From an uncultured Bacteroidota bacterium (GTDB lineage: Bacteria > Bacteroidota > Bacteroidia > Flavobacteriales > Flavobacteriaceae), in the NCBI GenBank assembly GCA_902560045.1, contig CACEKJ010000001.1:1-64000 (forward strand): 64,000 bases of DNA, written 5' to 3'. Made by a program: the position numbers and the translations under genes. Below are positions 12,494 to 44,609 of the stretch, one piece after another. The notes under the pieces are model-generated. The model had not been told where the DNA came from. It did no database searches and worked only from the letters and a program-made list of their open reading frames with translations. The first letter of the stretch is position 1. Every line of letters begins with the position of its first letter.

Positions 12494-12552
12494 CTTTTAT
12501 TTAAACTACAGTAAAATAATTTGAATTTGTAAATTCGGACAAAATATCAACA

Positions 12553-14223
12553 TTGAATAGAATCTTTAAAATTTTAATATTATTAATATTAATTACTTCT
12601 TGTAAGAAAAATAACCAGGGGGTAATTTCAGAAAATGCAATGGTTGTTTCCGCTAGATCAGAAGCAAGTCAAATTGGAATTGATATTTTAAAAAAAGGTG
12701 GTAATGCTTTTGACGCAATGGTAGCAACTGAGTTGGCTTTAGCTGTATGTTATCCATCAGCAGGAAATATTGGAGGTGGTGGTTTTATGATTTATAGAAA
12801 AAATGATGGTAAAGTTGGCGCATTAGACTACAGGGAAAAAGCTCCTAAAAAATCGTCAAGAGACATGTATCTTAACGATAAAGGAGAAATCATTGAAGGC
12901 TTGAGCATGATTGGAGGTTTATCAATTGGAGTCCCAGGCACGATTGCTGGAGTCTTTGAGGTTCATGACAAATTTGGAAGCCTTCCCATCGAAGAGCTAA
13001 TAAAACCTGCAATAGATCTTGCGAATAAAGGGGTTAATGTAACAAAAAAACAAAGCGAAAAAATAAACGAAAATCTTGAATACTTTAAGTTAGCAAACAA
13101 AGAACCCATTCTATTTAGCAACGGATTTAAAACCAATGATACAATTAAATACAAAAATTTAGCCTCCACATTAACCAGAATAATGTTAAACGGAAAGGAT
13201 GAGTTTTACAAGGGAGAAACTGCAAAAAAACTTGTTAAATATATACAGGAAAATGGCGGAATAATTTCCCTAAATGATTTAGAAGATTACAAACCTGTTT
13301 GGAGAGAACCTATAATTTTCAATTATGACAATTTAAAGATAATTTCTATGTCTCCTCCATCCAGTGGTGGAATATGTATCAGTCAAATTTTTAAAATGAT
13401 TGAGCCATATGATTTGAAATCTTACGGGCACAACTCACTTGATTACATAAAGCTATTAGTTGAAGCTGAAAGAAGGTCTTTCGCTGACAGAAGCCACTTT
13501 CTTGGGGATCCAGATTTTACCGATATACCCTTAAATGATATGTTAGATAAGGAATATTTAAAAGCAAGAATGGAAGATTTTTCATTTGACAAGCCAACTG
13601 ACTCTAACGAATTATCTCATGGTAATATCAATATTATAGAAAGTGATGAAACCACACACTATTCTATAGTTGACGAATTTGGAAACGCTATTGCTGCAAC
13701 GACAACTCTTAACGGTTCCTATGGATCTAAACTTTATTGTGAAGAGTTAGGTTTCTTTCTAAATAATGAAATGGATGACTTTTCCAGTAAACCAGGATTT
13801 CCAAACATGTATGGACTAATTGGAGGTGAAGCTAATAAAATTGAACCCGAAAAAAGAATGTTAAGTTCAATGACCCCTACAATTGTAGAAAAAAACAATA
13901 AACTCTTTATGACATTAGGTACACCAGGCGGATCAACAATAATCACTTCTGTAATACAAACTATACTTAATGTACATGAGTTTAAAATGGGCATGAATGA
14001 AGCAGTAAACTCTCCTAGATTTCATCATCAATGGATGCCTGATTCAATCAGAATTGAATCTAAAAGATTTGATAATAAAATAAAAAATGCATTGATAAAA
14101 TCTGGATATAAATTAAATGACAAGGGATCAATAGGAAGAGTTGACGGAATATTAATTAACTCACAAAACAAACTTGAAGGAGGAGCGGATAAAAGAGGTG
14201 ATGATACTGCTATTGGATATTAA
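12553..14223 (+). CDS. ggt: Gamma-glutamyltransferase (lipoprotein)
   Basis: A 556-residue Ntn-type enzyme that cleaves or transfers the gamma-glutamyl group of glutathione and related peptides. The lipobox ILITSC (Cys17) predicts a periplasmic lipoprotein. The N-terminal large-subunit region shows KKGGNAFDAMVATELAL and GNIGGGGFM. Autocleavage would occur before Thr367 in DETTHYSIVDEFGNA, giving the small subunit with its N-terminal nucleophile; GTPGGSTI follows later. Translation starts at TTG (12553), the only codon that gives a proper lipoprotein signal. It lies 5 bp upstream of uvrA and is likely the first gene of a ggt-uvrA-LOG operon. Confidence 0.93.
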   Translation: MNRIFKILILLILITSCKKNNQGVISENAMVVSARSEASQIGIDILKKGGNAFDAMVATELALAVCYPSAGNIGGGGFMIYRKNDGKVGALDYREKAPKKSSRDMYLNDKGEIIEGLSMIGGLSIGVPGTIAGVFEVHDKFGSLPIEELIKPAIDLANKGVNVTKKQSEKINENLEYFKLANKEPILFSNGFKTNDTIKYKNLASTLTRIMLNGKDEFYKGETAKKLVKYIQENGGIISLNDLEDYKPVWREPIIFNYDNLKIISMSPPSSGGICISQIFKMIEPYDLKSYGHNSLDYIKLLVEAERRSFADRSHFLGDPDFTDIPLNDMLDKEYLKARMEDFSFDKPTDSNELSHGNINIIESDETTHYSIVDEFGNAIAATTTLNGSYGSKLYCEELGFFLNNEMDDFSSKPGFPNMYGLIGGEANKIEPEKRMLSSMTPTIVEKNNKLFMTLGTPGGSTIITSVIQTILNVHEFKMGMNEAVNSPRFHHQWMPDSIRIESKRFDNKIKNALIKSGYKLNDKGSIGRVDGILINSQNKLEGGADKRGDDTAIGY

Positions 14224-42535: not shown

Positions 42536-43420
42536 ATGAAAAATATCTCTGTCATAGGTTGTGGTACAATGGGTAATGGTATCGCACAAACATTTGCTCA
42601 GTATAATTACAATGTTATCCTATATGATATAAGCAAAGAAGCTTTAGACAAAGCAATGCTTGTAATTAATAAAAATCTTGGAAGAATGGTCATAAAAGAT
42701 GTTATTTCCGAAGAAAAAAAGAATATTACCCTAAAAAACATAATTACAACTACAGATTTTAACATGATAAAGAAGTCTGATTTGGTTATTGAAGCAGTAA
42801 GTGAAAACCTAGATTTAAAAAAATCAATTTTTAAAAAATTAGATTTAGAATGTGGTAAAGACACAATCCTAGCTTCCAATACCTCCTCAATTTCTATAAC
42901 CGAATTAGCAGAATCTACTAATAGAAAGGATAAAGTAATAGGAATGCATTTCATGAATCCAGTACCTATTATGAGCCTAGTGGAAATAATAAACTCGAAG
43001 CATACAAGTACAACTACAACGGAAACTATTATTGAAATTTCTGAAAAACTAGGTAAAATTCCGTTAACTGTCAATGATTATCCTGGTTTCATATCTAACA
43101 GAATCCTGATGCCAATGATTAATGAAGCAATCGAGGCATTGGAAGATGGGGTATCAACTGTTAAGAACATTGATGGAATTATGAAACTAGGTATGGGTCA
43201 TCCAATGGGACCTTTACAATTAGCTGATTTAATAGGTTTAGATGTTTGTAAATCTATATTAGAGGTTATGTTTAAAGGAATTAATAAAAACAAATATGTG
43301 CCAAATAAATTACTAATTGAACTTGTAGAAGATGGAAAGCTTGGGGTTAAATCTGGAGAAGGTTTTTATGATTACAGTAACTCTAAAAAAGCTGAAATAG
43401 TTTCAAAAAGATTTTGTTAA
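42536..43420 (+). CDS. 3-hydroxybutyryl-CoA dehydrogenase family protein
   Basis: A 294-residue NAD-dependent enzyme that oxidises 3-hydroxyacyl-CoA. It has SVIGCGTMGNGIAQTFAQ, ASNTSSISITELA, the catalytic-His region GMHFMNPVPIM, NDYPGFISNRILMPMINEA and MKLGMGHPMGPLQLADLIGL. The ATG at 42536 is chosen because it starts directly at the Rossmann strand; an in-frame TTG upstream would overlap the previous gene. Its stop overlaps the yggS ATG by one base (TAATG). The chain-length preference (butyryl type) is inferred from size. Confidence 0.93.
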   Translation: MKNISVIGCGTMGNGIAQTFAQYNYNVILYDISKEALDKAMLVINKNLGRMVIKDVISEEKKNITLKNIITTTDFNMIKKSDLVIEAVSENLDLKKSIFKKLDLECGKDTILASNTSSISITELAESTNRKDKVIGMHFMNPVPIMSLVEIINSKHTSTTTTETIIEISEKLGKIPLTVNDYPGFISNRILMPMINEAIEALEDGVSTVKNIDGIMKLGMGHPMGPLQLADLIGLDVCKSILEVMFKGINKNKYVPNKLLIELVEDGKLGVKSGEGFYDYSNSKKAEIVSKRFC

Positions 43421-44070
43421 TGATTACAGAAAGTTTAAATAAAATTATCAACGAAATACCCTCAAACGTAAAATTAATTGCTATTTCAAAAACCAAGTCT
43501 AAAGAAGAGATTTTAGAAGCTTACGGTCACGGTCAAAGAATATTCGGTGAAAATAAAGTTCAAGAAATGACCGAAAAATACAGTTCGCTTCCTAAAGATA
43601 TTAAATGGCATATGGTAGGTCATGTTCAAAGTAATAAAATTAAATATATGGCCCCGTATGTGGACTTGATTCATGGGATTGATTCTTTTAAATCAATAAG
43701 GACAATTAATAAAGAAGGTGAAAAAAATAATAGGATTATAAAATGCCTATTACAGCTAAAAATATCAAGTGAATCAACAAAATTTGGTTTAGAAATTGAC
43801 GAATTAGAAAAAATCATTCAATCACCAGAATATAAAAAATTATCATTTGTAAAAGTATGCGGTATAATGGCAATGGCAAGTTTTACTACTGATTTAGAAT
43901 TAGTAAGAGAAGAATTTAATATTGCGAGTAAATTATATAATAGAATAAAAAAAGTCAATAGTGATTTTCAGATATTATCTATGGGAATGAGTAATGATTA
44001 CAAAATAGCTATTGAAGCTGGAAGCAATATGATTAGAATTGGAAGTTTAATTTTTGGTTCAAGAAATTAA
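43420..44070 (+). CDS. YggS-family PLP homeostasis protein
   Basis: A 216-residue alanine-racemase-fold protein (PLPBP). The PLP-binding Lys24 is in AISKTKS; then RIFGENKVQEMTEKY, WHMVGHVQSNKIKYM, the SMGMSNDYKIAIEAGSNMIR phosphate site and RIGSLIFG. It regulates PLP and amino-acid balance and has no known catalysis. The ATG at 43420 overlaps the stop of the upstream gene by one base. Its stop lies 5 nt before the proposed ATT start of the exonuclease. Confidence 0.94.
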   Translation: MITESLNKIINEIPSNVKLIAISKTKSKEEILEAYGHGQRIFGENKVQEMTEKYSSLPKDIKWHMVGHVQSNKIKYMAPYVDLIHGIDSFKSIRTINKEGEKNNRIIKCLLQLKISSESTKFGLEIDELEKIIQSPEYKKLSFVKVCGIMAMASFTTDLELVREEFNIASKLYNRIKKVNSDFQILSMGMSNDYKIAIEAGSNMIRIGSLIFGSRN

Positions 44071-44075
44071 TAAAT

Positions 44076-44609
44076 ATTTACACGGTAGTAGACATAGAGA
44101 CAACAGGTGGCAAATTCAGTGAAGAGAGAATCACTGAAATAGCCATATATAAAATGGATGAAAATGAAAATATATCTAAATTTCATAAACTTATTAATCC
44201 TCAAAAAAAAATTCAACCTTTTGTTAAAAAACTAACAGGCATTACGGATGAGATGCTTTACGATAAGCCCCTGTTTTCTGATTTTGCAAAGCAAATAGAT
44301 GATTTTACAAAAAACAGCATATTTATCGCCCATAATGTAAATTTTGATTACCGAGTTTTAAAAGAGGAATTTAAAAGAATTGGTTTAAACTTTAAAAGAA
44401 AATCTCTGTGTACAATAGAATTATCTAAATCCGTTTTTCCGGATGAAAAATCGTATAGTTTGGGAAAACTTGTTTCTAGTCTAGGTATTGAAATTAAAAA
44501 TAGACATAGAGCAGATGGAGATGCAATGGCAACTTTAAAACTTTTTAAAAAAATATGTTTAAACCTTAATAAAAAACAGTTGTCAAAATTTATTAAAATT
44601 AATCAATGA
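44076..44609 (+). CDS. DEDDh 3'-5' exonuclease (PolC/DnaQ-like), non-AUG start
   Basis: A 177-residue exonuclease of the DnaQ epsilon-like group. Motif Exo I is VVDIETTGG (residues ~4-12), Exo II is AHNVNFDYR, and Exo III is HRADGDA, so all DEDDh acidic residues and the His are present. The first ATG is at 44154, after Exo I, and would give an inactive product. The frame has no ATG, GTG or TTG between its last stop (44034) and 44154. ATT at 44076 yields M-Y-T-V-V-D-I-E, as in relatives that begin MYAIVDIE; ATA at 44070 is the alternative. Its stop overlaps the miaA start (ATGA). Confidence 0.85.
   Translation: MYTVVDIETTGGKFSEERITEIAIYKMDENENISKFHKLINPQKKIQPFVKKLTGITDEMLYDKPLFSDFAKQIDDFTKNSIFIAHNVNFDYRVLKEEFKRIGLNFKRKSLCTIELSKSVFPDEKSYSLGKLVSSLGIEIKNRHRADGDAMATLKLFKKICLNLNKKQLSKFIKINQ

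Follow-up and report, generated by a model that had tools for sequence, protein, structure and literature searches.

A few bacterial genes that begin with a codon of the AUU type are known. infC, encoding IF3, is autoregulated by means of its non-AUG start, and Binns and Masters are said to have found in 2002 an AUU start in E. coli pcnB, the gene of poly(A) polymerase. In S. aureus, conserved non-canonical starts of cvfC1 (AUU) and ccpN (AUA) lower the yield of the products, according to passages of PMC13009471. Beyond infC, conserved AUU-type starts appear to be few in the open-licence PMC literature, as far as its relevant passages go. For the Cho+Exo proteins, belonging to the UvrC/Cho GIY-YIG family, a role in nucleotide excision repair has been proposed in parts of PMC1564403.

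The gene described here lies in a stretch of 64,000 nucleotides (the window) from the genome of an uncultured member of the Flavobacteriaceae (contig CACEKJ010000001.1, assembly GCA_902560045.1). A sequence-only reading of this DNA had placed motif I of an exonuclease before the first in-frame ATG, had described the frame as open back to a stop at 44034 and devoid of ATG, GTG and TTG, and had named the ATT 5 nt past the yggS stop as the likeliest start. All of this was borne out: DIETTGG occupies 44091-44111 and the ATG 44154, the codons from 44037 to 44075 hold zero ATG, GTG or TTG in the exonuclease frame, and the ATT at 44076 aligned with the starts of relatives. In the window, ATG, GTG and TTG are absent between −20 and +31 around this ATT. 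The yggS gene ends with TAA (44068-44070) and the exonuclease gene with TGA (44607-44609); the flanking genes are presumably yggS and miaA, names which we take from their proteins. The features are collected in Table 1.

Table 1. Features of the exonuclease locus, in window coordinates.
Feature	Position	Strand	Basis or remark
Exonuclease gene	44076..44609	+	177 aa from ATT; predicted DEDDh 3'-5' exonuclease domain protein; Pfam RNase_T and conserved N-terminus in relatives
ATT start codon	44076..44078	+	Aligns with ATG, TTG, GTG, ATA and ATC starts of relatives
T at position −1	44075..44075	+	T at −1 common among weak-start relatives
Codons 2-9	44079..44102	+	Few out-of-frame start triplets here in weak-start relatives
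Motif I DIETTGG (D6, E8)	44091..44111	+	Codons 6-12; alignment with DinG exonuclease 8zef and PolC exonuclease 2p1j
Motif II Asp (D91 in HNVNFDYR)	44346..44348	+	Alignment with 8zef and 2p1j
Motif III H-x4-D (H144 to D149)	44505..44522	+	Alignment with 8zef and 2p1j
First ATG in frame (Met27, internal), not accepted as start	44154..44156	+	Met in 2/15 same-genus copies
In-frame upstream stop TAG	44034..44036	+	Sequence
In-frame ATA overlapping the yggS stop, rival start	44070..44072	+	Sequence; shared with G003 (L004), not seen here in the 13 remaining same-genus copies
yggS-like gene just upstream	43420..44070	+	Match upstream in 86/90 and 78/80 loci
miaA	44606..45505	+	Overlaps the exonuclease stop (ATGA)

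It is likely, in our assessment, that AUU at 44076 initiates a complete DEDDh exonuclease, that the family keeps this gene mostly on weak codons (AUU, AUC, AUA, UUG, GUG), and that the start is marked by its context and serves a low dose of the enzyme. The position of the start is strongly supported by sequence comparison; we infer the throttling, the control by IF3 and the benefit.

Translated from the ATT, the window protein matched Pfam RNase_T with an E value of 2.9e-37 over residues 4-157, covering nearly the whole profile (positions 2-164). The catalytic role of D6, E8, D91, H144 and D149 is presumed from family membership. All five residues aligned with the solved exonucleases of DinG (8zef) and PolC (2p1j). 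The Asp of motif II and the His-x4-Asp of motif III are both in place, and the Asp and Glu of the DEDDh (DnaQ-like) motif I are present only if the gene is read from ATT or from farther upstream. It had been predicted that a gene caller restricted to ATG, GTG and TTG would truncate this gene and lose the active site. The mechanical ORF list indeed gave a protein of 151 aa from 44154, and its RNase_T match started at profile position 29 rather than 2. Annotations made with only these three start codons may lose the nuclease active site in many genomes.

The two full-length relatives tested combined RNase_T with GIY-YIG, and one of them also resembled excinuclease Cho. No GIY-YIG match was found in the 177-aa window protein, which is not a Cho+Exo fusion. 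The 15 same-genus copies comprise 176-178 codons and most relatives about 440-460, some about 360; one genome elsewhere (L090) has a short form too, of 181 codons. The second half of a relative, searched against 21 genomes of the genus, gave matches in 16, to the GIY-YIG part only and in frames of mostly 605-613 aa, which were read as UvrC; the window's own genome contributed a single GIY-YIG match, in a frame of 607 codons. A detached Cho half was not found among these 21 genomes, which are 56-86 % complete. In genomes of such completeness it appears, short of proof, that the window genus keeps the exonuclease half and that the GIY-YIG half is gone.

The protein was searched for in 149 genomes, among them that of the window, and matched in 136. 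The best match was read in 90 of them (L003-L092), the remainder being 45 genomes of the order's other families plus the genus member G010, whose match was weak (1.7e-6). The second set consisted of 80 named loci, the best 80 among the matches listed, which lean to close relatives since the query alignment was headed by an ATT-start protein. They include Flavobacterium, Kordia, Winogradskyella, Tamlana, Algibacter and Olleya. Two loci labelled Candidatus Nitrotoga (L163) and Sphingobacterium thalpophilum (L172) look flavobacterial, so these bins are possibly mislabelled. Two of the named loci match loci from the same family without a difference over 500 nt, an indication that they are Flavobacteriaceae. 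After removal of L144 and L148, duplicates of L047 and L058, 168 loci remained. No similar sequence was found in phage records.

The gene starts with ATT at 46 of the 168 loci, ATC at 6, ATA at 4, TTG at 74, GTG at 2 and ATG at 36. ATG occupies codon 1 in 33 cases; in the other three (L088, L089, L090) codon 1 is no start and an ATG stands 1-3 codons upstream, and these were counted as ATG among the 168 and excluded from the base and tree counts. Grouped, there are 56 copies of the ATT/ATC/ATA class and 76 of the TTG/GTG class, giving 132 weak starts, and the AUU/AUC/AUA class accounts for 15/15 copies read within the genus. At 45 loci ATG, GTG and TTG are absent within 15 codons, and in the first set a canonical start before motif I is missing from all 20 ATT copies of other genera. 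An in-frame stop precedes the start with at most three codons between in 22/56 ATT/ATC/ATA copies, directly before ATT in L167. ATG was read in L086, L091 and L092, whose families are more distant within the order, and TTG in L034, L037 and L076, from one other family. Judging from the aligned loci, weak starts are the rule for the exonuclease gene in the sampled family. One amendment to the sequence-only reading is that the non-AUG start, which is real, is not peculiar to the window genome, as ATG is the minority among the sampled loci. In eight loci with ATG starts (L121, L125, L126, L138, L157, L174, L177 and L189) tandem in-frame TTG-NNN repeats stand right before codon 1; in six of these eight, yggS was found 509-650 nt upstream.

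Neighbouring and related genes were used as controls. Under a lenient rule, which accepts any ATG in frame and no more than 15 codons away, yggS has ATG at 157 of the 158 assessable loci (of 168), and the same rule yields ATG for the exonuclease in only the 36 cases given above. Of 68 miaA genes found, 51 had ATG, 15 TTG only and 2 neither; in the last two (L155, L185) no canonical start occurs within 15 codons of the aligned N-terminus and ATC is a possible start. Paralogues of the exonuclease, fetched as second matches from 20 of the genomes, had a canonical start in 20/20 cases (15 ATG, 4 TTG, 1 GTG). Since yggS and the paralogues are canonical, the weak start belongs to the exonuclease gene and not to these genomes generally. 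Three of the four TTG-start paralogues (L097, L098, L100, L106) have GAC at codon 6 like weak-start orthologues, and the orthologues in these four genomes start with ATG.

Of 55 infC matches 30 were fetched (L193-L222) and 27 loci were read, the gene not being found in L199, L201 and L213. ATG, GTG and TTG were absent in 26/27 copies across the order and in 15/15 within the family; the likely starts are ATA or ATC, and CTG in three. infC of the window genome (G000:C1:81996-82496, L219) probably starts with ATA. Since infC is also non-canonical, a machinery accepting such starts seems to be present.

In the reading that we prefer, the weak start would give low output, and IF3 would reject part of the complexes formed on AUU, AUC or AUA. 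The review PMC4611024 sets these triplets, in the passages concerned, apart from those ending in G. The purpose may be to keep the dose of a possibly harmful repair nuclease low, and a weak start would be explained most simply by the need to limit a nuclease able to attack the cell's own DNA. A strong start is evidently tolerated in many lineages, since the gene begins with ATG at 36 loci, and this counts against throttling. The weakness might instead be unselected: if little protein is needed, the codon may drift among usable triplets and the context may only keep initiation in place. The tree of 165 rows requires 20 or more changes between ATG and weak starts and at least 43 changes of class; this and the ATG loci themselves speak for such drift. 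Against it, yggS keeps its ATG, the paralogues are canonical, and ATG occurs in none of the 15 copies of the genus although the third base varies between T, A and C, these copies being close kin. Taken together, we regard drift as unlikely.

Shine-Dalgarno sites are lacking in these bacteria, so that local context would mark the start; SD-like GGAG, GAGG or AGGA was found in 1/56 ATT/ATC/ATA copies. The marks would be U at −1, a leader rich in A for the AUU/AUC/AUA class, a weakly structured start region and the clearing of nearby rival start triplets. The initiator tRNA may read AUU with the aid of U at −1 pairing with A37, an extended codon-anticodon contact of the kind reportedly described by Esposito et al. 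in 2003. T at −1 was present in 84/117 weak-start copies outside the genus and 12/15 within it, in comparison to 5/33 ATG copies and 37/143 yggS starts. In 13 independent supported pairs, T at −1 went with the weak start in 9.0 and in the opposite direction in 0.8 (median p 0.016, range 0.0005-0.29). Statistically, U at −1 is the only start-context signal that holds after correction for ancestry. In the same kind of pairs the start class had no significant link with GAC at codon 6, with a codon 3 ending in A or with the avoidance of triplets (median p 0.25, 0.625 and 0.625, respectively), so the codon-side associations are perhaps partly inherited; raw counts ignoring kinship were 38/46 weak-start against 3/23 ATG copies for GAC at codon 6. 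A occupies positions −11 to −13 in 88, 73 and 78 % of the ATT/ATC/ATA class and in 55, 38 and 43 % of the TTG class.

In the weak-start copies (n=117) codon bias is strongest, among 278 columns, at codons 7, 3, 6, 4 and 2. In the ATG copies (n=33) codon 6 ranks 178 of 208, and codons 7, 5 and 4 are still among the ten most biased. Out-of-frame ATG, GTG and TTG triplets within codons 2-9 numbered 6 against 61.7 expected in the ATT/ATC/ATA class outside the genus (n=41) and 17 against 113.6 in the TTG/GTG class (n=76), a depletion of about 7- to 10-fold. The ATG class (n=33) was depleted too, far less (28 against 45.9), and the depletion in the genus was weaker (10 against 22.3). Out-of-frame ATT, ATC and ATA in the same codons were seen 14 times against 39.3 expected in the ATT/ATC/ATA class, 26 against 70.8 in the TTG/GTG class, 12 against 23.1 in the genus and 24 against 28.5 in the ATG class. 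Much of the early codon bias in weak-start copies is due to the removal of competing starts. In yggS the ratios of observed to expected were 0.57 for ATG/GTG/TTG and 0.91 for ATT/ATC/ATA, and ATG by itself, uncommon in that gene, gave 1.18; some avoidance of start triplets is therefore general. AUG avoidance in Bacteroidetes has been reported in passages of PMC6847099.

Codons 2-9 could also form a specific RNA structure or a protein-binding site that controls translation. The concentration of bias in codons 2, 3, 4, 6 and 7 would agree with this, as would GCA at codon 3 and the preference for ATA over ATC at codon 7, for which triplet avoidance provides no explanation. Start regions are, however, less structured than their synonymous variants (mean z +1.25 for 60 of the 117 weak-start copies, +0.59 for 33 ATG copies), and a conserved upstream pairing partner was not seen by eye in the locus sequences, which makes such an element quite improbable. 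A candidate hairpin, TTG-TACG-CAA with a UNCG loop, was rejected, as folding against synonymous variants gave less structure, not more.

A start a few codons upstream, used by termination-reinitiation or overlap, was also considered. A match was present in 16 genomes of the genus, the window's own included, and the starts in the 15 copies read were ATT in 11, ATA in 2, ATC in 2 and ATG in none; in three copies (L015-L017) the start codon lies one place upstream. The sequence-only reading had advised looking for ATG at this place in close relatives, and none of these 15 copies has it. The nearest, 97 % identical and belonging to a different genome, carries ATA and not ATG; a sequencing error would therefore explain the ATT poorly, and the refutation proposed with that reading does not apply. 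Upstream initiation could use the in-frame ATA at 44070, shared by the window and G003, the second ATT that many genus members have at codon −1, or the in-frame TTG or GTG that 10/15 genus copies have 7-8 codons upstream, inside yggS. We regard the latter as incidental to the yggS sequence, since five of the 15 copies, including the window's, do without them. Furthermore, a stop stands 0 or 1 codon before codon 1 at 10 loci, nine of which are left without another start-like codon, and the distance to yggS, 3 to 6 nt in the genus, varies from −1 to 1146 nt elsewhere. These data leave an upstream start very improbable.

Initiation at ATG 44154, giving an inactive or different product, is what mechanical ORF calling returns. 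It was anticipated that relatives starting there and lacking motif I would speak against the ATT; Met27 is present in just two of the 15 genus copies. Codons 2-26, which precede the first ATG, show constraint at the protein level: pN/pS was 0.27, 0, 0 and 0.09 in four same-genus comparisons, with few changes. A point against the ATT reading is that in the window's own pair the ratio was higher before the ATG (0.27) than after it (0.07). As a control, 53 non-overlapping window frames matching stretches of three same-genus relatives were screened for conservation that sets in over 6 codons ahead of the first canonical start. A looser version had flagged 29/66 frames, antisense frames and conserved non-coding DNA being matched, and the non-overlapping frames were used instead. 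Twelve of the 53 were flagged; inspection showed that in ten a Met lines up with one in at least one relative, that another has TTG, and that only the exonuclease has neither. At 12520-14220 of the window a lipoprotein-like gene has TTG as its sole early canonical start and its first ATG 40 codons in. With motif I lost as well and the relatives contradicting it, a start at 44154 is hardly credible. Equally so is a frameshift, a readthrough fusion with YggS or an assembly error: the very tight yggS spacing in the genus would suit it, but frame and distance to yggS differ among relatives and the corresponding codon in an independent genome is ATA.

A broader view, built on the preferred weak AUU start, is offered as tentative: the Flavobacteriaceae would have both a repair nuclease and IF3 on non-AUG starts, the dose of the nuclease would follow the state of IF3 and the ribosome, and an extended codon together with cleared triplets would define the start where Shine-Dalgarno sites are lacking.

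A paper naming this exonuclease as a weak-start case was not found within the open-licence PMC literature. Compared with known proteins, the exonuclease has the domain and the aligned catalytic residues of the DinG- and PolC-type DEDDh exonucleases (8zef, 2p1j), here with no helicase or polymerase attached. The RNase_T plus GIY-YIG arrangement of Cho+Exo, as given in parts of PMC1564403, recurs in the two relatives tested, and the window genus has the exonuclease half only. infC had been put forward as the known example of an ATT start. The comparison holds in that infC is non-AUG in these bacteria too and the conserved non-AUG start is common to both genes, but the exonuclease is not IF3, so any effect of IF3 would be in trans. 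The closer analogue is E. coli pcnB, likewise encoding a nucleic-acid enzyme limited by AUU, there poly(A) polymerase; here, unlike in pcnB, SD-like motifs are almost absent and the start codon varies among relatives. The S. aureus genes cvfC1 and ccpN rely, according to passages of PMC13009471, on extended Shine-Dalgarno pairing, which is absent here. Conserved AUU or AUA starts with lowered yield are already known from infC, pcnB, cvfC1 and ccpN, in so far as the cited passages cover them. What appears to be new is one more gene of this kind, in a version without Shine-Dalgarno support and with five weak codons interchanging over the family. Since switching among weak codons has occurred repeatedly in this family, whose phylum is without SD sites, these loci provide natural replicates of how a weak start may be found without SD pairing.
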